Shown here in pieces: positions 6,958 to 33,034 of a DNA stretch of 36,479 nt. The stretch's first letter is position 1, and each line of letters begins with the position of its first letter. Location: positions 1-36,479 of the forward strand of contig JAEUJX010000030.1 of assembly GCA_016794545.1 (NCBI GenBank), given 5' to 3'. A program made the position numbers and the translations under genes. The notes beneath the pieces are model-generated. The model made no database searches. It worked only from the letters and a program-made list of their open reading frames with translations, and was not told the origin of the DNA. This DNA is from Myxococcales bacterium. GTDB taxonomy: Bacteria > Myxococcota_A > Polyangia > Haliangiales > Haliangiaceae.

Positions 6958-8106
6958 CTACGGCGTCACGACCGACAGCAGCCGGTCGACGATCTCGCCC
7001 GCGCGCATCCCTTCGGCCTCCGCGCGGTAGTTCAGGATCAGGCGGTGCTGCAGCGTCGGCCGCGCGAGCGCCGCGACGTCATCGACGGCGACGGCGAACC
7101 GGCCGTCGAGGATCGCGCGCGCCTTCGCGGCGAGGATCAGGAACTGCGATGCGCGCGGGCCCGCGCCGTACGACACGGACTCGCGGATGAACGCGGGCGC
7201 GGTCGGCGAGGTCGGCCGCGTCGCGCGCGCGAGCGCGACCGCGTACTTCACGACGTGGTCTGCCGCGGGCACGCGGCGCACGAGATCCTGGAGCTGCATG
7301 ATCCGCTGGGGCGACAGCACGCGGCCGAGCTCGGGGCGGTGATCGCTCGTCTGCTGGCGGACGATCTCCTCCTCCTCGGCCTCGGTCGGATAGTCGACGT
7401 CGACCATGAACATGAAGCGGTCGAGCTGCGCCTCCGGCAGCGGGTACGTGCCCTCCTGCTCGATCGGGTTCTGCGTCGCGAACACGAGGAACGGGAGCGG
7501 CAGGTCGTGCGTGGTGCCGCCCGCGGTCACGCGATACTCCTGCATCGACTGGAGCAGCGCGGCCTGGGTCTTCGGCGGAGTGCGGTTGATCTCGTCGGCG
7601 AGGACGAGGTTCGCGAACACCGGCCCCTTGATGAACTTGAACACGCGCTTGCCGGTCGTGTGGTCCTCCTCGAGGACCTCCGTCCCGGTGATGTCGCTCG
7701 GCATGAGATCCGGCGTGAACTGGATGCGCTGGAACGACAGGTTCAGCGTCTCGGCGAGCGTCGAGATGAGCAGCGTCTTCGCGAGGCCGGGGACGCCCAC
7801 GAACAGCGTGTGGCCGCGCGCGAACAGCGCGACCAGCAGCTGCTCGACGACGCGGCGCTGGCCGATGATGCGCTTCTCGATCTCGCGCAGGATGTCGGCG
7901 TGCGCCGCGGCGAGCTCCTGCACGGCGTCGAGGTCCGTTTTCGGAGACGGGGGCGGGAGCTGCTGCGACACGCCGGGCGGTGGGACGACCGCGGTCACCT
8001 GCGTCGACGTGACATCCTCCGACGCGAGCGGGTGCTGCTCGGGATCGGAGCCGACGATGCGGATCGGCGGCTCGCCGTGGGTCGGAGTGGGGATCGGTTG
8101 CTTCAT
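6958..8106 (-). CDS. MoxR-family AAA+ ATPase
   Basis: The start is ATG 8106, which overlaps the upstream TGA stop (TGATG). The product is 382 residues. A Pro-rich, probably disordered extension occupies residues 1-58 and is not part of the usual MoxR core of about 320 residues. The core shows Walker A GVPGLAKT (104-111), Walker B LVLADEIN (167-174), sensor 1 ATQNP (210-214) and the LDRF element with Arg230. MoxR ATPases act as chaperone-like remodellers with VWA-domain partners. Its neighbours supply both an intact VWA protein (DUF58) and a degenerate one (BatA-like). Earlier in-frame start codons further upstream fall inside the peptidase gene in another frame and are not used. Family assignment is firm; the target is unknown. 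Confidence 0.95.
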   Translation of the reverse strand: MKQPIPTPTHGEPPIRIVGSDPEQHPLASEDVTSTQVTAVVPPPGVSQQLPPPSPKTDLDAVQELAAAHADILREIEKRIIGQRRVVEQLLVALFARGHTLFVGVPGLAKTLLISTLAETLNLSFQRIQFTPDLMPSDITGTEVLEEDHTTGKRVFKFIKGPVFANLVLADEINRTPPKTQAALLQSMQEYRVTAGGTTHDLPLPFLVFATQNPIEQEGTYPLPEAQLDRFMFMVDVDYPTEAEEEEIVRQQTSDHRPELGRVLSPQRIMQLQDLVRRVPAADHVVKYAVALARATRPTSPTAPAFIRESVSYGAGPRASQFLILAAKARAILDGRFAVAVDDVAALARPTLQHRLILNYRAEAEGMRAGEIVDRLLSVVTP

Positions 8107-9725
8107 CAGTTCTTCAGCTCTGAACAGGCGGCTCGTTCGCGGTCGGCGCGCGGGTCGGACAGGCGTGTATACGCCTCCGAGAGCCCGCAGCGGGTGGTGG
8201 GGTCGAAAGGACTGATCCGGAGCGCCTGTTCGTAGGCCTGCGCGGCCTCCGGCCATTGTTGCCGCGCGGATCGGGCCATGCCAAGGGTCACGGCGGCCAC
8301 GGCGTCGCGGTCGTCCGCCGCGGCGAGCGGGGTGGCGAGCTCGATGGCCCGATCGAAGCGCCCCAGCTCGACGAGGGTCCGGGCGAGCTTGCCGGCCACG
8401 AACGGCTCCTGGCCACCGACCGAGAGGGCCTTCTCGTACTCGATCGCGGCGGCCTCGAGCATGCCGCGCGCCCGCAGCATGCCGCCGATCCGGGCGTGCT
8501 TGCGGGCACGGACCGAGACCTGCTCCAGGCCCACGTTCTCGGAGTCGACGCCGCCCTTCGCGAACTTGATCGGCTTGCCGGCGCGGGTGTTGCCGGCGGC
8601 CGGCTTCTCGGCCTTGAGGTGCGCGTGCCAGTCCTTCTCGACGCCGGCCCAGCTCGTGCCCATCACCTCGGCGACGGCGCGGCGCGCGCTCTTGCCGTCG
8701 CGCTGCGCGGCGAGCGCGTCGCGGATGCCCTGGTAGCCGACCTTCTTCTGCATCCAGCCGATCAGCGTGTAGACCTCGGCGTACGCGAGCGCCGCGGCCT
8801 CCTGGCTCGGCAGCTTGGCCATCGACGGGTGCATCTCGTCGAACGAGATCAGGCGCCCCTTCTTGAGCGCGCTCGCGAGCAGCGCCTGCTCGGTCGCGGC
8901 GAGCACGACCTCGGGCGGACGGCGCCAGCGCGTCTGCTCGAGCCGCGCGATGCCCTCCTGCATCCACACTGGCACCGTGTCGTGGCTGATCCGCGACACC
9001 ACGAGGTGCGTGTACTCGTGGGCGAGCGTGTCCATCCACGGGTAGCCGAAGATCGTCGCGCGCGGCGAGACGACCATCAGCTTGTTGTACTTGGACAGCG
9101 CGATCGTGCCGGTCGTCTCGATCTCCGCCTCGGTCAGCGGCGACAGCTTCGCGAGATCCGCCGGCGCGCCGAGCAGCTCGACGCGGATCGGGTCCGCCGG
9201 TCGCAGGCCCAGGTCCTCGCCGATCGTCTCGTACGCCGCATCGAGCACCTCGCCGGCGAGCGCCGCGATCGTGCCGTCGGGCCCGGGCGCGTACCGGATC
9301 AGGAAGTGGCCCTTCGGCGAGCGCAGCTCGGTGAACGTCGCGGTCACGCCGAGCGTCGACGACGCGAGCTTGCGCGTCTGTGCGACGAGCCCGTCGACGG
9401 CATCGTCGGGCAGCTTGTCGAGGCTCTTCAGGGCGCCGGCGTAGTCGCCGGTCTGGAACGCCAGCTCGGCGCGCAGCCACTTCACCTCGGCGGAGTCGCT
9501 GGCGCGCTTCTCGAGATCGGCGAGCAGCGCGCGGGCGTCGTCGAGCCGCGCGGTCTGGAGGAACCGCGCGGCCTTGATCACGTCACCGGTGACCGTGCGA
9601 TCGCGCCGCGCCTCCGTCGGCGCGGGGAGCGCGCACAGCGCCATCGCGACCACGGCGACGGCAAGGCTTGCCTTCGGCAGGCCGCGCAGCGCGGCGGAGC
9701 GGCGCGCAGGTAGCCGAGCCCTCAC
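8106..9725 (-). CDS. Secreted gluzincin-type metalloprotease (peptidase MA-like) with TPR regions
   Basis: The GTG start at 9725 overlaps the upstream TGA by four bases (GTGA). The 539-residue product has a hydrophobic leader at about 18-39 ending near TEARRDR, suggesting export. TPR-like helices follow (about 45-105). The peptidase core contains HEYTH at 236-240 and a downstream Glu257 in VWMQEGIARLEQ, the HExxH-E arrangement of gluzincins and of the peptidase-MA-like family. Helical TPR-like repeats recur at about 400-520 (for example AQAYEQALRISPFDP). Its location in a MoxR/DUF58 operon suggests an envelope job, perhaps processing or assembly of envelope proteins; that is inference. All zinc ligands expected for activity appear present. 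The gene ends at TGA overlapping the moxR ATG. Confidence 0.85.
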   Translation of the reverse strand: MRARLPARRSAALRGLPKASLAVAVVAMALCALPAPTEARRDRTVTGDVIKAARFLQTARLDDARALLADLEKRASDSAEVKWLRAELAFQTGDYAGALKSLDKLPDDAVDGLVAQTRKLASSTLGVTATFTELRSPKGHFLIRYAPGPDGTIAALAGEVLDAAYETIGEDLGLRPADPIRVELLGAPADLAKLSPLTEAEIETTGTIALSKYNKLMVVSPRATIFGYPWMDTLAHEYTHLVVSRISHDTVPVWMQEGIARLEQTRWRRPPEVVLAATEQALLASALKKGRLISFDEMHPSMAKLPSQEAAALAYAEVYTLIGWMQKKVGYQGIRDALAAQRDGKSARRAVAEVMGTSWAGVEKDWHAHLKAEKPAAGNTRAGKPIKFAKGGVDSENVGLEQVSVRARKHARIGGMLRARGMLEAAAIEYEKALSVGGQEPFVAGKLARTLVELGRFDRAIELATPLAAADDRDAVAAVTLGMARSARQQWPEAAQAYEQALRISPFDPTTRCGLSEAYTRLSDPRADRERAACSELKN

Positions 9726-12700
9726 TTGATGAGCTCCTCGTAGTAGCGCTTGATCATGTCGTCGTAGCCGTCCGGCGCGACGGAGCCCTTCTTCTTCATC
9801 GCCTCGAGCAGATCTTCGCGGAACCGCTCGGGCGCGCGGTACTCGTCGGCGCCGGGGATCCGGATCGGCTCGTCTCCGACCGAGCTGCCCTCCTGCGCCT
9901 GGCGCGCGGCGCTGCGTGCGCGGTCGCGGGCCTTCGCCAGTGCCTCGGCCGCGGCGCGCGCCGCTTCCCGCGTCCCGGACGGGTCGCGCGCCTTCGCGCG
10001 GTCGTCCGCGTTGCCCATCTGATCGACGGCGCCGCCGAGCTTCTTGCCGAGCTCCGCGCCGGCGTCGCCGGGCAGGTCGCCGCCGAGCTGCTTGGTGCGC
10101 TCCGCGAGCCGCTGCGCGCGGCCCTTGTTCATCTGCTGGCGCCGGCGCAGCCGGTCCATCGCGCGCATGTCATCCGGCGACATGATCTGATCGGGCCGCG
10201 GCGACAGCGACTGGAGCTCCTTGATGAGGTCCTTCGCGATCGGGTTCGCGCGCTCCACGCCGTCCAGTGCGTCCTGCGTGGCGTCGGCCCACTTGCTCTT
10301 CGGGTCGTCGTTGATCGCGGCCTCGAGCTCGCCGGCGATCGTGTCGAGCGACGTCTTCGCCTGCCGTGCCATGCCGAGCGCCTCCGCGAGGTCGCCGTCC
10401 TCGACCATCTTCTCGACGTCGCCGAGGCGCCGCTCGACGATGTCGAGCTCCTCCTTCGCGAACGGCGTCAGGCCGGCCTCGTTGATGTCACCGAGGCGCT
10501 TGCGCAGCTTCTCGACGAGCGCGCCGACCTTCTTCGAGGCCTCGCGCCGGCTGTCCTTCGCCACCTCGTCGGCCTTCTCGGCATACGACTCGAAGATCCG
10601 GTTCGCCTCGGCGGCGATGTCGTCCTGGTCCTTCGCGACGTCCGCGAGCTCGTTCATCACCTCGTCGAGCTTCCTCTGCTCGTCGGAGAACTTGTCACCG
10701 CGCAGGTTCGCGAGCGAGCCCTCGAGCGCGCTCGACGAGCGGTCGTGCTGCGTGCGGCACTGCTCGAGCTTGGCCTGCGCCTGCGCCGTCTGGCCGGCGC
10801 GCAGGAGCTTGCGGACCTCCTCGAGGCAGCTCTGGCCCTGTTGCGCCTGGACGGCGCTGCGGTTGACGTACTGGTCGAGCACGTCCTCGGCCATGCCCCT
10901 CCGGTGCTTCTCGAGGTCGGCGTACGCGCGCTCGAGCGCCTTCATCTCGCGCTCGATCTCGTCGAGCAGGCGCGGGTCCTTGGTCTTCGCGTACTGCGCC
11001 ATCAGGTCGGCGAGCCGCTTCTGGTGCGCGCTGATCTCGTCGGACACGTCGAGCAGGCCCTCGAGTCGCTCGCGGTCGAGCCAGTCGGCGAGCGTGATGG
11101 TGTCGTCCTCGAGCTCGGCGATGATGCGCGGATCGAGGCCGGCGAACCGCCCGGGCGCGAACCCCGCGGCCTTGCCGGCCTTGCCGCTCGGCAGGAGTCG
11201 CGCCTCCGCGGTCGCGAGCTTGTCGAGCCGCTCGCGCATCGCGGCGAGCGCCTTGCGCATCGCCTCCGACGCGTGCGGGTCCTTCTCGTACGCGGCGCCG
11301 ATCGAGCCGAGCTCGACCACCGCCTCCTTCAGCACGCGCGCGAGCTCCTCGCGGGGCGCCGGCTCGGCCTCGTCCTTCAGCACGAGGCGGCCGCCGAGGT
11401 TCTTCACGATCTTCTCGGCGAGCTCCTGCTGGCGGCCGAGCGTCTCCTCGTGGCGCTCGCGCGGCGACACGACCTTGAGCCGCAGCTCGCGCGACTTGCC
11501 GATGCTGCCGCCGCCGACGCTGTTGTTGTCCTTCGCCTCGACCCAGTAGCGGACCTCGCCGCCGCTCGGCACCACGATCTCGGCGATGTCCCACAGCAGC
11601 TTGCCCTGTGCGCGGCCGCTCCCCATCGCCGCTCCGCCCTCGAGCGGGATCGGCTTCTTGCCCTTGTCGCGGCCGGCTTCCCACACGAGCTCGGCGGTGG
11701 TGAGGCCGAAGTCATCCTCGATCACGAACGCGAGCTCGACGCGCCGCAGGTTCGTCACGTCGAGCTCGTCGGCGGGCGCCATCAGCTGGACGTTCGGCGC
11801 CTGGTCGGGCTCCGCGTCGATCGAGCGCGGGGTGGTCTCGATCGCGCGCGAGCCCGCCGGCCCCACGACCGCGAACCGGTAGCGCGTGCTCTTGTCGATC
11901 ACGAACGACGCGCGCATCTGGTCGCCCTCGAGCGTCGCCTTGATCGTCGTCGGCTCGTCGGGCTTGTCGGTGTCGACGAGGAGCTCGACCGCGGCGGCGG
12001 GCACGAGCACGCGCGCCTTGAGATCGACCTTCGTGCCGGGCAGGCCGCGCACGTCGCCCGACGACGACGGCAGCGGCAGCGGCTGCCGCTTCGAGTACGC
12101 GGGGAACGTGAGCACCGCGTCGAGGTCGCCGACCAGCGGGACGGTCGAGAGCTGCGCGCCGTCGAACGGCTGCTCCGGCGACCGCACGAGCGAGAGCCAG
12201 CCGCCGGCGACGACGCCGGGCGCCGCCGCGATCAGCAGGGCGTTCGCGAGCAGCGCGACCAGCATCCACCGCAGCGCGCGGCGGACCTCGCCCTCGGGGA
12301 GCAGCGCCCTGGGCTCGACGCCGTCGAGGCGCGACGCCGTCGAAGCGATCAGCGCGTCGACCAGCTCCTGCGACGGCGCGCCCGGGCGCACGGGAGCCTC
12401 GGCGAGCTCGACCGAGGACAGGAGATCGCTCGCGACCTCGCGCTTGCGCGTGCCGACCCAGCGCGCGACGTCGGCGTCGCTCCGGTAGCGGCGGCGCGGC
12501 GCGACGAGGCCCATGACGATCGCGCCCAGCACGACGAGCGCGGCGGCGAGCCCGGCGATGCCGAGCACCGTGACCGCGCTCGCGCGCGAGCCACCGAACA
12601 GGTGGCCGAGCACCGGCACGACGAGGCAGACCCCACCGACGGCCGCGACTGCGTAGAGCACCGCCCGCGCGGCCTCGTGGCGATAGAGCACGTGGCGGAC

Positions 12701-12832
12701 GCGCGCCAGAAAGCCTGGAATGGCCCTCGCTTGCGAGGGCTCCTGCGTGCCCGGTGTCGTCGAAGATGCTGCCACGATCTCGCCTGCGTCCCGCGACCTG
12801 TCGAGCATAGCTCTAGCGAGGTGTTCCGACAC
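9722..12832 (-). CDS. DUF4175-like large membrane protein with long coiled-coil C-terminus
   Basis: This is the first gene of the operon. If translation begins at GTG 12832 the product is 1036 residues; an alternative is ATG 12808 (1028 residues). Neither has a clear Shine-Dalgarno sequence. Three TM segments are visible at about 57-79, 85-110 and 189-210. Residues about 220-480 look like beta-rich extracytoplasmic domains. From about 490 to 980 the sequence is Lys/Glu/Arg/Ala-rich and strongly helical, consistent with long coiled coils. The overall architecture and the MoxR/DUF58 neighbourhood match DUF4175 proteins. The C-terminus ends DMIKRYYEELIK. It is probably anchored in the inner membrane with a large periplasmic helical part. 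No enzymatic motif is seen, and function is unknown. Its TGA overlaps the next gene's GTG. Confidence 0.8.
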   Translation of the reverse strand: MSEHLARAMLDRSRDAGEIVAASSTTPGTQEPSQARAIPGFLARVRHVLYRHEAARAVLYAVAAVGGVCLVVPVLGHLFGGSRASAVTVLGIAGLAAALVVLGAIVMGLVAPRRRYRSDADVARWVGTRKREVASDLLSSVELAEAPVRPGAPSQELVDALIASTASRLDGVEPRALLPEGEVRRALRWMLVALLANALLIAAAPGVVAGGWLSLVRSPEQPFDGAQLSTVPLVGDLDAVLTFPAYSKRQPLPLPSSSGDVRGLPGTKVDLKARVLVPAAAVELLVDTDKPDEPTTIKATLEGDQMRASFVIDKSTRYRFAVVGPAGSRAIETTPRSIDAEPDQAPNVQLMAPADELDVTNLRRVELAFVIEDDFGLTTAELVWEAGRDKGKKPIPLEGGAAMGSGRAQGKLLWDIAEIVVPSGGEVRYWVEAKDNNSVGGGSIGKSRELRLKVVSPRERHEETLGRQQELAEKIVKNLGGRLVLKDEAEPAPREELARVLKEAVVELGSIGAAYEKDPHASEAMRKALAAMRERLDKLATAEARLLPSGKAGKAAGFAPGRFAGLDPRIIAELEDDTITLADWLDRERLEGLLDVSDEISAHQKRLADLMAQYAKTKDPRLLDEIEREMKALERAYADLEKHRRGMAEDVLDQYVNRSAVQAQQGQSCLEEVRKLLRAGQTAQAQAKLEQCRTQHDRSSSALEGSLANLRGDKFSDEQRKLDEVMNELADVAKDQDDIAAEANRIFESYAEKADEVAKDSRREASKKVGALVEKLRKRLGDINEAGLTPFAKEELDIVERRLGDVEKMVEDGDLAEALGMARQAKTSLDTIAGELEAAINDDPKSKWADATQDALDGVERANPIAKDLIKELQSLSPRPDQIMSPDDMRAMDRLRRRQQMNKGRAQRLAERTKQLGGDLPGDAGAELGKKLGGAVDQMGNADDRAKARDPSGTREAARAAAEALAKARDRARSAARQAQEGSSVGDEPIRIPGADEYRAPERFREDLLEAMKKKGSVAPDGYDDMIKRYYEELIK

Positions 12833-12888
12833 GCGCCATGGGAGGACATGCGATATAACAACCGCGCGAGCGGTGCATCTTGCCGAGG
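12833..12888. promoter_or_regulatory. Divergent intergenic region with an AT-rich TATAAC patch
   Basis: Only about 56 bases separate the DUF4175-like gene from the sigma factor gene, so both promoters must lie here or inside coding sequence. The patch GATATAACAA at 12852-12861 stands out in this GC-rich DNA; TATAAC at 12854-12859 matches five of six bases of a sigma-70 -10 box reading rightward. No matching -35 hexamer is visible at 16-18 bases. The patch could serve either direction. Promoter activity is inferred. Confidence 0.3.
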
Positions 12889-13604
<716 letters not shown>

Positions 13605-25830: not shown

Positions 25831-26115
25831 TTATCGCGTCGCGCGGGACGGTGAGGAGCTCGGCGACGCGGCGTCACGCGCCGCGCGCTGCGCGTTCGCG
25901 CGGCGGACGAGGAGGAGCATGGCGCCGCCGGAGAGGGCCGCGAGGCCGATGCCGACATAGAGCAGGCGCCAGCGGTAGGCACCCGCGCCGGGGGGCTTGG
26001 GCGTGCTCCAGAAGCCGGAGCGGCCGCCGACCTGCTGCGCGTCGGCCTCGTCGCCGGCGGCCGCGGGACTCACCGCGGCGGTGGCGATCGAGAGCGCGAG
26101 CACGAGCCGCTTCAT
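25831..26115 (-). CDS. Small secreted/membrane protein of unknown function
   Basis: ATG 26115 opens a 94-residue protein. Residues 1-20 form a signal peptide (MKRLVLALSIATAAVSPAAA), followed by a short polar region (about 21-47) and one TM segment at about 50-70 (LLYVGIGLAALSGGAMLLLV), then a basic, Ser-rich tail. The order signal peptide, short loop, TM suggests a small single-pass membrane protein with its N-terminal part in the periplasm. No Shine-Dalgarno sequence precedes the start; TATACG lies six bases upstream, discussed as a possible leaderless promoter. No family is recognised. Confidence 0.7.
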   Translation of the reverse strand: MKRLVLALSIATAAVSPAAAGDEADAQQVGGRSGFWSTPKPPGAGAYRWRLLYVGIGLAALSGGAMLLLVRRANAQRAARDAASPSSSPSRATR

Positions 26116-26278: not shown

Positions 26279-28828
26279 ATGCCCCCGGGTCAGACGCTCA
26301 GGATGTGGACCTCTAACCAGAAAGCCGAGCCCAAGCCGCCGGTTGCGCGGGCCAAGGAAGTGGGGCCGAAGGGGGCCGGATCCGGCGGCAAGAAGGGCAA
26401 GCCGCAGCTCGAGATCGTGAAGCCCCGGCGGCGCTGGGTGCGCGTGGTGAAGTGGCTCGCGATCCTGACGTTCTCCGGGCTGCTGCTGCTCGTCGCGACG
26501 GTCGCGTTCGTGTTCTGGATGTACGGGCGCGATCCGAACCTGCCCGACTACAAGAAGCTCGCCGACTACCGGCCGCGGCAGGTCACGACGATCCTCGACG
26601 CGAACGACAACCGCATCGGCGAGATCTACACGGAGCGCCGCACGTACGTGCCGTACACGGCGGTGCCCAAGGTGCTGGTCGACGCGTTCGTCGCCGCCGA
26701 GGACGCGAAGTTCTGGACGCACTCGGGCGTCGACTACTGGGGCATGTTCCGCGCGTTCCTCATGAACATCCGCGCGGGCGGCCGCAGCAAGCAGGGCGCG
26801 TCGACGATCACGCAGCAGGTGGTGAAGACGTTCCTCCTCACGCCGGAGAAGACGTTCAAGCGCAAGATCCAGGAGATCATCCTCGCGCGCCGGCTCGAGA
26901 AGGCGATGTCGAAGGAAGACATCATGACGCTGTACGTGAACCAGATCTACTTCGGTCACGGACGGTACGGCGTGCAGGAGGCGTCGCGGTTCTACTTCGG
27001 CAAGGACGTCGGCCAGCTGAATCCCGGCGAGGCCGCGATGATCGCGGGGCTGCCGCAGTCGCCGAACAACATCTCGCCGCGCGTGAACCCGAAGCGGGCG
27101 AAGGAGCGCCAGAGCTACGTCCTGAACCAGATGGCGAGCCAGGGCTACCTGACGCCGGCCGAGGCGCAGAAGTGGATCGACGCGCCGATCAAGATCGTCG
27201 ACACGCCGTTCCCCAAGCTCGGCTCGGCGCCCGAGTGGGTCGAGCTCGCGAAGCGGGAGCTCGTCGCCGAGAAGGGCGAGGACGCGCTCGACACGCTCGG
27301 CGCGAAGGTCCGCACCACGCTGAACCCCGACCTCCAGGCGTCGGCGCAGAAGGCGCTGCAGAGCGGCCTGCGCGCCGTCGACAAGCGGCAGGGCATCGGC
27401 AAGCCGCTGCGCTCGCTCAAGGAGGACAAGATCGCTTCCACGCTGAAGTCGCTGACCGCGCGGCTGCCGGCCGGAGGGCCGAAGGCGAAGGAGATCTACG
27501 AGTCCGTCGTGGAGGCGGTGTTCGACGACGATCACGAGGTGGTCGTCGACCTCGGCGGCTGGAGGGCCGCGCTCGTGCTCGACACGCCCGAGGACGCGCG
27601 GTTCAACCCGCCCGACGACGCCGGCGCGACGAAGAAGCCGAGCGAGCGCTTCAAGAAGGGCGATGTCGTGCTCGTCAGCGTGCCGCAGGCCGAGGTCGAT
27701 GCGGCCGTCGCCGCCGCGACCGGCGACGAGGACGATCCGCCGCCGGACGCGAAGGCCAAGAAGCCGGCGGCGATCACGGTGAAGCACGCGCCGCACCGCG
27801 TGACGTTCGCGCCGGCGCCGCAGGGCGCCGTCGTGATCATCGACCTGAAGACGCGCAAGGTGCGCGCGCTGGTCGGCGGCTACACGTCGAAGGTGGGCGG
27901 CTTCAACCGCGCGACCATGGCGAAGCGGCAGCCGGGCAGCTCGTTCAAGCCGTTCGTGTACGCGGCGGCGATCGACTCGGGCCGCTACACCGCGGCGAGC
28001 AAGGTCAACGACGCGCCCGAGGTGTTCGACCTGTGGAAGCCGAAGAACTACGAGACCGGCAAGTTCGAGGGCCCGGTGCTGCTGCGCCACGCGCTCGCGA
28101 AGTCGATCAACACCGTCGCGATCCGCGTGACGTACGACATGAAGCCCGAGAACGTCGCCGCGTTCGCGAAGAAGATGGGCATCTCGACGCAGCTGCCCCA
28201 CGAGATGTCGCTCGCGCTCGGCTCGGGCGAGGTCACCCCGCTCGAGATGACGAACGCCATCGCGACGCTCGCGACCGGCGGGATCGCGGCGCCCCCGAAG
28301 TTCATCGACGCGATCGACGGCGTCGCCACCCCGCCGGCGAAGGGCGAGCAGGTGCTGCGCCCCGAGGTCGCGTTCGTCGTCGTCAGCATGATGCAGTCGG
28401 TCGTGAGCGAGGGCACGGGCATCCGCGCCAACGCACTCAAGCTCGGCGTCGCCGGCAAGACCGGCACGTCGAACGACGGCCGAGACAACTGGTTCATCGG
28501 CCTCACGCCCGACTACGCGATCGGCGTGTGGCTCGGCAACGACGACAACCGGTCGCTCGGCAAGGGCGAGACCGGCGGCACCTCGGCCGTGCCGGTGTTC
28601 GTGGAGATCGCGAAGGCGATGAACCTGTCGGCGAAGCCGTTCCCCCGGCCGGCGAACGTGGTCGAGGTGACGATCGATCGCGCGACCGGCCTCCTCGCTC
28701 CCGAGGGCGCGCCGAAGGGCACGACCCGGTCGGAGATGTTCGTCGAGGGGACCGCGCCGACCGAGGTCGCCCCGATGGCCGGCGAGGTCACCGAGGACAA
28801 CGTCGTCGAAGGCGAGTACAACGACTGA
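26279..28828 (+). CDS. mrcA: Penicillin-binding protein 1A, bifunctional (GT51 plus transpeptidase)
   Basis: ATG 26279 gives 849 residues; ATG 26303 is equally possible because neither has a good ribosome binding site. A Lys/Pro-rich cytoplasmic tail precedes one TM segment (about 60-82). The GT51 domain (about 100-300) has AAEDAKFWTHSGVD with Glu141, GASTITQQ, KRKIQEIILARRLE and EDIMTLYVNQIYFG. An inserted region between GT and transpeptidase (about 375-540) resembles the OB-like domain of PBP1A and includes an acidic, Pro-rich loop. The transpeptidase motifs are SSFK (Ser554), SIN (609-611) and KTG (727-729). It polymerises and crosslinks peptidoglycan in the periplasm. The TGA stop overlaps the next ATG (TGATG). 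All catalytic residues are intact. Confidence 0.95.
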   Translation: MPPGQTLRMWTSNQKAEPKPPVARAKEVGPKGAGSGGKKGKPQLEIVKPRRRWVRVVKWLAILTFSGLLLLVATVAFVFWMYGRDPNLPDYKKLADYRPRQVTTILDANDNRIGEIYTERRTYVPYTAVPKVLVDAFVAAEDAKFWTHSGVDYWGMFRAFLMNIRAGGRSKQGASTITQQVVKTFLLTPEKTFKRKIQEIILARRLEKAMSKEDIMTLYVNQIYFGHGRYGVQEASRFYFGKDVGQLNPGEAAMIAGLPQSPNNISPRVNPKRAKERQSYVLNQMASQGYLTPAEAQKWIDAPIKIVDTPFPKLGSAPEWVELAKRELVAEKGEDALDTLGAKVRTTLNPDLQASAQKALQSGLRAVDKRQGIGKPLRSLKEDKIASTLKSLTARLPAGGPKAKEIYESVVEAVFDDDHEVVVDLGGWRAALVLDTPEDARFNPPDDAGATKKPSERFKKGDVVLVSVPQAEVDAAVAAATGDEDDPPPDAKAKKPAAITVKHAPHRVTFAPAPQGAVVIIDLKTRKVRALVGGYTSKVGGFNRATMAKRQPGSSFKPFVYAAAIDSGRYTAASKVNDAPEVFDLWKPKNYETGKFEGPVLLRHALAKSINTVAIRVTYDMKPENVAAFAKKMGISTQLPHEMSLALGSGEVTPLEMTNAIATLATGGIAAPPKFIDAIDGVATPPAKGEQVLRPEVAFVVVSMMQSVVSEGTGIRANALKLGVAGKTGTSNDGRDNWFIGLTPDYAIGVWLGNDDNRSLGKGETGGTSAVPVFVEIAKAMNLSAKPFPRPANVVEVTIDRATGLLAPEGAPKGTTRSEMFVEGTAPTEVAPMAGEVTEDNVVEGEYND

Positions 28829-29820
28829 TGCCGCGCGGCGGGCTCGTCGCTGTCTTCGCGCTGACGCTCGTCGTCGTGCCGGCGCGACCGGCGCGAGCGG
28901 ATCGCGGCACGTTCGCGCGGCTCGCGAACGAGGCCCACCACGCGCTCGCGCGCGACCTCGCGGCGAAGTCGCCGAAGCTCGTGCCGCCCGTCCCCGTCAA
29001 GGTGACGTGGAAGCCGGTGCGCATCGGCTCGCTCGATGTCGGCGGGGCGCTCGTCGCGCTCGGCGCGGCGGATCTCGATGGCGATGGCAGGGCCGAGCTG
29101 TACGCGGTCACGACGCGCGAGGTCGTCGCGATCGGCGCGGCGAACAAGAAGGCCGTCGAGCTCGGGCGGGTCGCGTACACCGGCGCCGCCGCGGTCCCGG
29201 CGTCCCGCGATCCGGTCGGCACGATCACGGTCGACCAGGGGCAGATCGTCGCGTCGACGTCGGCGTGGGACCTCGAGCTCCGCGTGTCGCGCCAGGGCGG
29301 GGCGCTCGTCGGGCAGCTGGGCTCGGCCGGCTCGCTCGTGTGCCCGGGCGAGCGCCTCCTGCGCGTGCCGGGCCGCAACCACTTCGGAGACCTCCAGCAG
29401 CCGCTCTACGGCGTGCGGTGCGCGAAGCTGGTCGATCCGCTCGGCGCGCCGCTCTCCGTCCGCGGCGCGCTGGTCGGCACCCGGCTCGAGGTCACGATCG
29501 AGCGCTGCACGCCGACCGGCTGCCTGCCGGTCGCCAAGCACGAGCTCAAGGACTACGGCTCGGCGTTCGCCGTCGCGGATGTCGATCGCGACGGCAAGCC
29601 CGAGGTGATCGTCACCGGGGCGGGAGCGCCAGGCGACGCCGATGCCGTGAAGGTGATCACGCTCGGCGGCGACGAGAAGAAGGGCTTGTTCCGCCGCACG
29701 TTCAACGGGGGCGTCGTCGGCGTGGTCGTCGCGGATGCCGACGGCGACGGCACCGCCGAGGTGATCGCGGCGGTGCGCCTCGCCGGTGCGACGCGGGTCG
29801 ATCTGTGGAGGCTCGATTGA
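28828..29820 (+). CDS. Secreted FG-GAP/VCBS-like protein, second gene of the PBP1A operon
   Basis: ATG 28828 overlaps the PBP1A stop. The 330-residue product has a Sec signal peptide (about 1-24, ending PARPARA). Three acidic loops of the FG-GAP/integrin type are visible: DLDGDGRAEL (82-91), DVDRDGKPEV (251-260) and DADGDGTAEV (303-312), each followed by hydrophobic strands, consistent with a partial beta-propeller that may bind calcium. Four Cys residues in the middle could form disulfides. It is probably periplasmic. Translation coupling to PBP1A upstream and to a solute-binding protein downstream suggests that the proteins work together, but no domain explains how. It resembles the lipoprotein at 330-1283 in motif style only. 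Confidence 0.8.
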   Translation: MPRGGLVAVFALTLVVVPARPARADRGTFARLANEAHHALARDLAAKSPKLVPPVPVKVTWKPVRIGSLDVGGALVALGAADLDGDGRAELYAVTTREVVAIGAANKKAVELGRVAYTGAAAVPASRDPVGTITVDQGQIVASTSAWDLELRVSRQGGALVGQLGSAGSLVCPGERLLRVPGRNHFGDLQQPLYGVRCAKLVDPLGAPLSVRGALVGTRLEVTIERCTPTGCLPVAKHELKDYGSAFAVADVDRDGKPEVIVTGAGAPGDADAVKVITLGGDEKKGLFRRTFNGGVVGVVVADADGDGTAEVIAAVRLAGATRVDLWRLD

Positions 29821-31307
29821 ACCGGCTCGCCACGCTCGCGCTCGTCGCCCTCGCGGCGCTGTGCGCACACCCGGCACAGGTCGGCGGCGAGGGCCGGCCG
29901 CGGTTCGGCGGGACGCTCGAGGGCTCGCTGCTCGGGGCGCCGGTGACGCTCGATCCGCCGCTGGCGCAGACCCACGCGGAGCTCACCGCCGTCGAGCTGG
30001 TGTTCGACACGCTGTACCGCGTGGGGCCCGCCGGGCTCGCGCAGCCGCACCTCGCCGTCGCGGCTCCGGTCGCGGCGGCCGGCAAGGTCGTGATCGACAT
30101 CGTGCCGGGCGTGCGGTTCCACGACGGCAGCGAGCTCGTGCCCGCCGACGTGGTCGCCTCGCTCGAGCGCGTCCGCACCACGCCGGCGCGCTGGACGCTG
30201 GCGCCGATCACCGCGGTCGCGGCGACGCCGACGGGCGTCGAGCTGACGACGGCGTTGCCGCCGGAGCAGATCGCGCTCCTGCTCGCGCTCCCGGCGACAG
30301 CGATCACGAAGGCGGGCCGCGCGCAGGGGGACCGGCCGATCGGCTCGGGACCGTTCGCCGTCGAGATCTGGGACAAGAAGACGCGGCTCGTGCTGCGCGC
30401 GTTCGACGGTCACTTCGCCGGCCGCCCGTACCTCGATCAGCTCGTGCTGCGCTGGTACGACACGCCCGACGGCGAGGCGCGGCAGTTCGAGAAGGGCGAC
30501 GCGCAGCTCTCCTCGCGCGGCGCGAGCGTGTTCACCGGTGTCCAGCCGAAGTTCCGCGCTCAGGACCTCGAGGGACCGGCGGCCCTGCTCGTGTTCGTCG
30601 GGTTCGGGCGCGTCCACGCCGACGTGCTCGCGGACCGGTCGTTCCGCCGCGCGCTCGACCTCGCGCTCGCGCGCAGCGCGTTGACGAGCGTGACGAGCGG
30701 CGAGCGCGTCGCGCCGTCGCGGTCGCCGCTGCCGGTCGAGGCCGGTGGGCCCATGCTCGACGTGCGCGGGGATGACGTCAACGGCGCGCGCGCGGCGCTC
30801 GCCGATGCCGCGAAGCGCGTGAGGGCACTCGCGCCCGACCGGCTTCCGCAGCTCAAGCTCGAGATCCTGATCCAGGACACGCGGCCCGACGACCGCGAGC
30901 TCGCCGAGCGCACCGCGCTCGCGCTGACCAAGCTCGACATCAAGAGCGTGATCACCGCGGTGCCGGCCGCGACGCTGCGCGATCGCGTGCGGCGGGGCGA
31001 CTGCGATCTCTGGATCGGCCAGCTCGCCGCACCGGTCTCCGCGGCGCCCGCGTGGTGGGGCGCGGCGTTCGCGGCCGGCGGTGACACCTGGGCCGAGCAG
31101 CGGCTCGCCGCCGGTGCGATCGACACCACGGCCGCGCACAAGGCGTTCGCCGAGCGCCTGCCGATCGTGCCGCTCCTGTTCCGCGCGGTCCGCATCTGGC
31201 ACCGCAGCGACGTGCGCGGGCTCGGATTCGACGCCACGGGGCGGCCGAGCTACGCCGACATGTTCTACTTCGGCGATCCGGCGCGGGCGGGGAGGGGCAA
31301 GCCGTGA
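29817..31307 (+). CDS. Family-5 (peptide/oligopeptide-type) solute-binding protein
   Basis: The start is TTG 29817, forming a TTGA overlap with the previous stop; GGAGG lies five bases upstream, which supports this rare start. The 496-residue product has a signal peptide (about 1-22) whose Cys16 sits in AALC, not a good lipobox. The body shows the SBP_bac_5 layout: GGTLEGSLLGAPVTLDPP near 31, ELVFDTLYRVGPAGLAQPHL near 60, the VRFHDGSELVPADVV block, and a RPIGSGPFAVEIW block. These proteins normally deliver peptides to an ABC importer, but no permease or ATPase gene lies in this window, and the next gene is a sensor kinase. A sensory role is therefore possible, as an inference. Confidence 0.85.
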   Translation: MNRLATLALVALAALCAHPAQVGGEGRPRFGGTLEGSLLGAPVTLDPPLAQTHAELTAVELVFDTLYRVGPAGLAQPHLAVAAPVAAAGKVVIDIVPGVRFHDGSELVPADVVASLERVRTTPARWTLAPITAVAATPTGVELTTALPPEQIALLLALPATAITKAGRAQGDRPIGSGPFAVEIWDKKTRLVLRAFDGHFAGRPYLDQLVLRWYDTPDGEARQFEKGDAQLSSRGASVFTGVQPKFRAQDLEGPAALLVFVGFGRVHADVLADRSFRRALDLALARSALTSVTSGERVAPSRSPLPVEAGGPMLDVRGDDVNGARAALADAAKRVRALAPDRLPQLKLEILIQDTRPDDRELAERTALALTKLDIKSVITAVPAATLRDRVRRGDCDLWIGQLAAPVSAAPAWWGAAFAAGGDTWAEQRLAAGAIDTTAAHKAFAERLPIVPLLFRAVRIWHRSDVRGLGFDATGRPSYADMFYFGDPARAGRGKP

Positions 31308-33034
31308 AGCTGCGCGGGCGGTTCACGCTCTCGCTCGCGCTCGCGGCGCTCGTCCCGATCTCGGTCGCCGCGGTCGTCACGCGGCAGGTGATCGCGTCGA
31401 GCTCGCGCGCGGGCTACGAGGAGGATCGCCGCACCGCCGAGAACGCGCTCCGGCGCGAGCTCGACACGCTCGGCGACGACGTGAAGGAAGCGGTCGGCTC
31501 GCTCGCCGACAACCGCAACCCGTTCGTCGGCGTGCTGCTCGGCGAGCTCGCGAAGGGCACGCTCGGGGACGGCCGAGTGCTCAAGCAGCTGCGCGAGCAG
31601 GCGGGGCAGGTCATGCGCGGCCTGCGGTTACAGGTGCTCACCGTCACCGGCGGCGACGACCGCGTGCTGATCACGCCGCACTACCGCGACGCGACCGATG
31701 ACACCAACGCGACGATCCGCGAGCGCGCGGTCAAGACCAACGGCGAGCCGTACTTCGTCTACGAGCAGCTGCGCACCGGGCCGACGGTCGAGACGGTGCT
31801 GGTCGCCGAGTCGGCGCACCTGTCGCGCAAGGACGGCTTCACCGTCGCGCTGTCCGGGGGGCGCAAGGTCACCGACAAGCTGCTCGCCGGGATCCGGCAG
31901 CAGGGCCGCGTCGACGCGCGCGTGCTCGACGCGAAGGGGCAGGTGCTGCTGAAGCCCACCTCCGACTGGGCGAAGATCGCGAAGGACGAGCTGATCACCC
32001 AGCCGCTGCTCGGGCCCGACGGCAAGCAGGTCGCGGTCATCGAGGTCGCGGTGTCCGATGGCGACCTCGACGCGGTGCTGCGCAACATCACCCTGATCAG
32101 CGCGCTGCTCGCGCTCGGCGCGCTCGGCGCGGTCGTGCTGATCGGCCTGTTCGTCGCGAAGCGGACCGCGCAGGACCTCGAGAAGCTCGTCGAGGGCTCG
32201 CTCGCCGCCGCGCGCGGCGACCTCGACCACCGCGTGCCGGTCCGCGCGAAGGACGAGATCGGCGCCGTCGCCGCGGCCTTCAACTTCATGATGGAGGATC
32301 TGAAGACGTCGAAGGAGCGCCTCGTGATCGCCGAGCGCATCGCGGCCTGGCAGGAGATCGCGCGGCGGCTCGCGCACGAGATCAAGAACCCGCTCACGCC
32401 GATCCAGATGGCGATGGACACGCTGCGCAAGACCTGGAAGAAGCAGCACCCCGAGTTCTCCGAGATCCTCGAGGAGTCGACGACGACCGTGCTCCAGGAG
32501 GCCGATCGCCTGAAGCACATCGTGTCCGAGTTCTCGGACTTCGCGCGCATGCCCAAGCCCGAGTTCGGACGCATCGATCTGAACGACGTGGTCAAGAGCG
32601 CGACGACGCTGTACCAGGAGGCCGCCCCCGTCGAGGTCCACCTCGGCGAGATGCCCGAGGTCGACGCCGACAAGGCGCAGATCAACCAGGTGGTGCTGAA
32701 CCTCGTCGAGAACGCACGCGACGCGATCAGCAAGCGGTCCGACGGCAAGATCACGGTGTCCACCCGGCTGGGCGAGAGCGGCGACCGCGTGTTCCTCGTC
32801 GTCGAGGACAACGGTCCGGGCGTCCCGGCCGAGCTCAAGGACAAGGTGTTCGCGCCGTACTTCACGACGAAGCACGCGAAGGGCGGCACCGGCCTCGGGC
32901 TCGCGATCGTGGCCCGCATCGTCAACGATCACGGCGGCCGCATCACCGTCACCGATGCCAAGGGCGGCGGCGCGCGGTTCACGATCGAGCTGCCGCTGCG
33001 CAACGGCACCGCGCTGCTCGCGTCGCGCATCTAG
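31304..33034 (+). CDS. Membrane sensor histidine kinase, NtrY-like
   Basis: GTG 31304 overlaps the upstream TGA (GTGA), with GGAGG at 31291-31295. The 576-residue protein has TM1 at about 7-27, a periplasmic sensor of about 230 residues (about 28-257), TM2 at about 262-284, and a HAMP linker (about 285-337). The phospho-acceptor is His358 in LAHEIKNPLTPIQM, the NtrY/PilS-style H-box. The catalytic ATPase domain shows NLVENARDAI (N box), VEDNGPGVP (G1), FAPYFTTK (F box) and GGTGLGLAIV (G2). No response regulator gene is adjacent. The linkage to a solute-binding protein and PBP1A suggests sensing of an envelope or peptide signal. Its stop shares the palindrome CTAG with the convergent deacetylase gene. 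Confidence 0.93.
   Translation: MKLRGRFTLSLALAALVPISVAAVVTRQVIASSSRAGYEEDRRTAENALRRELDTLGDDVKEAVGSLADNRNPFVGVLLGELAKGTLGDGRVLKQLREQAGQVMRGLRLQVLTVTGGDDRVLITPHYRDATDDTNATIRERAVKTNGEPYFVYEQLRTGPTVETVLVAESAHLSRKDGFTVALSGGRKVTDKLLAGIRQQGRVDARVLDAKGQVLLKPTSDWAKIAKDELITQPLLGPDGKQVAVIEVAVSDGDLDAVLRNITLISALLALGALGAVVLIGLFVAKRTAQDLEKLVEGSLAAARGDLDHRVPVRAKDEIGAVAAAFNFMMEDLKTSKERLVIAERIAAWQEIARRLAHEIKNPLTPIQMAMDTLRKTWKKQHPEFSEILEESTTTVLQEADRLKHIVSEFSDFARMPKPEFGRIDLNDVVKSATTLYQEAAPVEVHLGEMPEVDADKAQINQVVLNLVENARDAISKRSDGKITVSTRLGESGDRVFLVVEDNGPGVPAELKDKVFAPYFTTKHAKGGTGLGLAIVARIVNDHGGRITVTDAKGGGARFTIELPLRNGTALLASRI
33031..33034. other. CTAG palindrome serving as stop codon for two convergent genes
   Basis: On the plus strand TAG at 33032-33034 ends the histidine kinase gene. 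On the minus strand TAG at 33033-33031 ends the deacetylase gene. The two convergent coding regions therefore overlap by four bases and leave no room for an intergenic terminator. Confidence 0.85.

Follow-up and report, generated by a model that had tools for sequence, protein, structure and literature searches.

A conserved gene block of PBP1A, an FG-GAP protein, a family-5 solute-binding protein and a histidine kinase in one class of Myxococcota, a candidate envelope-sensing operon

The window, by which we mean the whole stretch of 36,479 nucleotides analyzed here, is contig C400 of an 8.49-Mb genome assembled in 780 contigs (G000). Its forward strand carries a block of four genes for the wall synthase PBP1A, an FG-GAP repeat protein, a family-5 solute-binding protein (SBP) and a membrane histidine kinase (HK), with the following features:

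26279 to 28828, forward strand: class A PBP1A (transglycosylase and transpeptidase), 849 aa; Pfam Transgly and Transpeptidase, TIGR02074 above cut-off
28828 to 29820, forward strand: FG-GAP repeat protein, 330 aa; FG-GAP_3 match, apparent cleavable signal peptide (by eye)
29807 to 29811, forward strand: perfect GGAGG, Shine-Dalgarno-like stretch inside the 3' end of the FG-GAP gene, 5 nt upstream of the SBP start codon (TTG)
29817 to 31307, forward strand: family-5 SBP, 496 aa; PF00496, apparent signal peptide (by eye)
31020 to 31022, forward strand: codon of SBP Gln402 in the motif [WY]IGQL, aligning with the peptide-amino-binding Asp of OppA, DppA and MppA
31304 to 33034, forward strand: HK, 576 aa; TM, double-Cache-like periplasmic domain, TM, HAMP, HisKA, HATPase_c
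31400 to 32074, forward strand: predicted periplasmic double-Cache-like sensor domain of HK, residues about 33-257 (AF2 and fold matches)
32375 to 32389, forward strand: phospho-acceptor motif H358-E-I-K-N (HExxN) of HK, invariant in the aligned orthologs

All four genes, with their overlaps, match exactly the description in an earlier note on this DNA. PBP1A and the FG-GAP gene share 1 bp (TGATG), the FG-GAP gene and the SBP 4 bp (TTGA), and the SBP and HK again 4 bp (GTGA). The sensor kinase, as the note had said, lies directly behind the binding protein, and the genes form a translationally coupled unit. Instead of at the TTG, the SBP could start at an in-frame GTG (29805), and the stretch around the GGAGG (ctgtggagg) was found again when the junction was compared in relatives. 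With 567.5 bits against TIGR02074 (cut-off 508.75) and both catalytic domains present, the first product belongs to PBP1A; the SBP, with 115.3 bits against SBP_bac_5 (PF00496, curated cut-off 32.4), is a member of its family. The FG-GAP protein has two nearly invariant cysteines, C172 and C198, and HAMP, HisKA and HATPase_c were assigned to HK by Pfam.

We searched 36 relatives for the SBP and 144 genomes of the class with its profile, and fetched and mapped the flanks of the matches; a separate search for related loci (find_related_loci) yielded 4. The order PBP1A-FG-GAP-SBP-HK is found on one strand in families f1 to f4, f15 and f23; in f13 the last three genes are present and the contig breaks before PBP1A, and in f22 and f25 a more divergent SBP is still in place. 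Nearly all order-level relatives, and distant families of the class too, have FG-GAP-SBP-HK, in most cases behind PBP1A where the contig extends that far. The conserved pairing of SBP and kinase genes expected of an SBP-dependent kinase was thus observed, with the 4-bp SBP/HK overlap in most same-genus loci and a conserved junction sequence. In one genome (G017) the FG-GAP gene is not recognized, and some 0.9 kb separates PBP1A from the SBP; in another (G092) the FG-GAP gene is displaced and PBP1A was not seen. Restriction of the order to this genome had been named in the earlier note as grounds against its own proposal; since different families of the class preserve the order, a chance or genome-specific arrangement is ruled out. 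Neither fusion nor co-occurrence was found at E<=1e-50 in 379 genomes of the phylum outside this class, with only four candidates scored per genome, and our search of the open literature turned up no account of the operon. That the block stayed together across one class of Myxococcota suggests a dedicated envelope-sensing unit.

The surroundings of the block vary. Upstream of PBP1A, trmH is present in 8 of 12 same-genus loci and absent in the window, and in several families a gene fusion that joins a DUF748/YhdP-like (AsmA-type) N-terminus to a GT51 transglycosylase domain is located upstream of trmH-PBP1A (L054:1685-3970; also L061, L064, L066, L106 and L107). The window itself has a small predicted membrane protein (25831 to 26115, reverse strand), divergent from PBP1A, which by eye resembles the cluster c20 gene of L050 and L053, located there on the same strand as PBP1A. 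Downstream genes differ among loci while the block stays: the window has a polysaccharide deacetylase gene on the opposite strand, an AAA ATPase and a partial aldehyde dehydrogenase, and dapA and dapB follow HK in several same-genus loci. Families outside the genus of the window share a conserved convergent gene 3' of HK (L057:11977-13683 and 11 other loci); its product, for which Pfam gave no match, is a membrane protein that has an extracytoplasmic domain.

About 33 of the 144 genomes of the class have a full-length ortholog of HK. One of these genomes (G024, locus L143) reads trmH-PBP1A-HK, the kinase following straight after PBP1A with both the FG-GAP gene and the SBP missing, a case of natural loss of the two genes in between. 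As two further genomes (G104 and G112) also have an HK ortholog without the SBP, the kinase has no strict need of it. The FG-GAP protein and the SBP appear to travel together, and HK appears able to do without both.

We used a fixed-tree branch-length test with 31 branches and one unlinked periplasmic control, TolB. Partial correlations given TolB, PBP1A and the kinase core were 0.54 for SBP and sensor, 0.51 for SBP and FG-GAP and 0.50 for FG-GAP and sensor (p 0.002-0.004), and those with TolB, given PBP1A and the kinase, were 0.14 for the sensor, 0.39 for the SBP and 0.38 for FG-GAP. A partial correlation of 0.81 between SBP and sensor in distance matrices looks stronger, but there the branches are not independent. 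The branch-length values give moderate support to a shared periplasmic function of the FG-GAP protein, the SBP and the HK sensor.

The periplasmic part of HK, for which Pfam returned no sensor match, was modeled with a pLDDT of 88 (AF2) as a double-Cache-like domain. Its fold matches are DctB (Z 13.4), KinD (12.7) and LuxQ (12.3), together with CitA and CHASE4 domains; a Z of 12-13 is moderate, and many Cache-type sensors concur. The label 'NtrY-like' given to the kinase in the earlier note holds for the kinase core and was rejected for the sensor part, which is double-Cache-like: of the NtrY architecture (TM region, HAMP, PAS, kinase) the PAS domain was not found by Pfam, and no NtrY model is among the best 25 of 91 NCBIfam matches. 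Judged by its HExxN motif, HK probably has both kinase and phosphatase activity. No conserved adjacent response regulator was found among the neighbor clusters c3-c33, assessed by Pfam for some representatives and by reading for others.

The SBP model is a complete bilobal family-5 fold (AF2, pLDDT 91.6), matching family-5 SBPs with VIA-align Z values of 27-35 (maximum 34.6) over 426-455 residues. As proteins that bind peptides, murein tripeptide, sialic acid, nickel or opines are all among the matches, the fold does not name the ligand. In MppA, Asp439 bonds the free amino group of the murein tripeptide (PMC6022919). We aligned 24 SBP orthologs with the E. coli K-12 proteins, and in this one alignment column OppA, DppA, MppA and the SBPs of a second SBP5-HK operon have Asp, the residue for the peptide alpha-amino group, whereas the orthologs have Gln (19 of 24) or His, Ser, Arg or Thr (5 of 24) and in no case Asp. 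The conserved Gln suggests a pocket retained for another ligand or for one with a blocked amine, and an ordinary peptide whose N-terminus is free is an improbable ligand. An ordinary peptide-binding role of the SBP is weakened by the missing Asp.

The same column bears on the model of the earlier note, in which murein peptides are captured by the SBP, which then informs HK of wall turnover. Such a role fits an SBP in an operon with PBP1A, the genes for meso-DAP precursors (dapA, dapB) behind HK in several same-genus loci, and the presence of MppA and of DppE with murein tripeptide among the fold matches. The residue that would hold the amino group is nevertheless replaced in all orthologs aligned, and the fold agrees just as well with binders of sialic acid, nickel and opines, so that we consider wall peptides an unlikely ligand; muropeptides with L-Ala still attached to MurNAc lack a free amine at that point and lie outside this argument. 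We likewise think it improbable that the SBP is an ordinary importer component whose permease is encoded elsewhere, its operon position being historical. The complete family-5 fold would allow this, and contig C398 carries a DppBC-type permease pair with no recognizable SBP in the stretch read, which might conceivably be the partner of the SBP studied here. An ABC importer operon would, however, include a permease gene, and in agreement with the earlier note no BPD_transp_1 permease was found by Pfam on the window contig, nor any ABC permease beside the SBP in any locus examined, while the SBP stays with HK. The genome has four SBP5 genes including that of the window: the one on C699 has two adjoining permeases, the one on C725, at the contig end, is of the second HK-linked kind, and the one on C81, a small contig without a permease, could itself be the partner of the C398 pair.

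A further alternative is direct sensing by HK, which we regard as possible rather than probable. Here the kinase would respond through its double-Cache-like domain, or to PBP1A or the state of the wall, and the SBP and FG-GAP protein would form an independent periplasmic module sharing the operon. The three genomes that keep HK without the SBP, one of them with HK beside PBP1A, are in line with this, as is the observation that Cache domains, such as those of DctB, CitA and KinD, are commonly ligand binders in their own right. On the other hand, the SBP adjoins HK in nearly all other loci, the rates of SBP and sensor are correlated, and the sensor has few conserved polar residues (H126, R206).

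We give about an even chance to the reading that the block specifies a dedicated cell-envelope two-component sensor, assisted by the SBP and tied to PBP1A. The SBP, its exported FG-GAP partner and HK are encoded in overlapping reading frames behind PBP1A; the SBP would act as a co-receptor instead of a transport protein, and the FG-GAP protein would work with it as accessory or anchor. The double-Cache-like domain may then read the open or closed (or empty or loaded) SBP, as LuxQ does with LuxP and TorS with TorT, and HK would signal to an unlinked, probably NtrC-type response regulator adjusting wall synthesis or envelope repair. Most likely, HK is modulated in the periplasm by the SBP and the FG-GAP protein, and the purpose of the system is homeostasis of the wall or envelope; the SBP-HK contact, the ligand and the output are what we infer. 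More tentatively, the SBP may represent a class-specific family-5 lineage that lost transport and became, with the FG-GAP protein, the ligand-reading co-receptor of a double-Cache-like kinase setting peptidoglycan synthesis by PBP1A, with a non-peptide or amine-blocked ligand.

Sensor kinases activated by binding proteins are established in LuxPQ, TorT-TorS and XylFII-LytS (PMC6321045), in which the periplasmic domain of the kinase reads a binding protein that has no transport duty or is used apart from transport. The periplasmic domain of LuxQ is itself, with DctB, among the fold matches of the HK sensor, a candidate domain for docking the SBP. In contrast to these systems, the SBP described here is of family 5 (dipeptide/nickel type) and is encoded with PBP1A and an FG-GAP protein. 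With MppA, OppA and DppA it shares the Pfam family and the complete fold, but it differs from them in the absence of the peptide-amino Asp and of an adjoining permease, and in its link to a sensor kinase. Two wall-stress two-component systems (PMC8359209), VxrAB of Vibrio cholerae and WalRK of Bacillus subtilis, resemble the operon studied here in tying a histidine kinase to the synthesis or state of peptidoglycan. Their descriptions include no SBP partner; here the kinase gene lies in a PBP operon and no response regulator adjoins it. The signals that report the state of the wall to Gram-negative bacteria are largely unknown, and a conserved operon of wall synthase, SBP and sensor kinase offers a defined, purifiable candidate whose SBP can be screened for its ligand. 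If the proposed mechanism is true, SBP-assisted kinase sensing would extend to family-5 SBPs.

The second SBP5-HK operon is unrelated and present in the same clade (L068:3908-9416, L072 on the reverse strand, L076 about 7989-13432, and C725 of the window genome, L170:898-2538), from which it follows that the pairing of SBP5 and HK recurs. Its order is SBP5 with the peptide Asp kept, an HK with HAMP-GAF-HATPase, and a REC-GGDEF response regulator, making it a candidate for a complete pathway from SBP to c-di-GMP. In L068 and L072 the SBP5 and HK genes overlap by 4 bp (GTGA), and the operon is divergent from TRAP-transporter-like genes.
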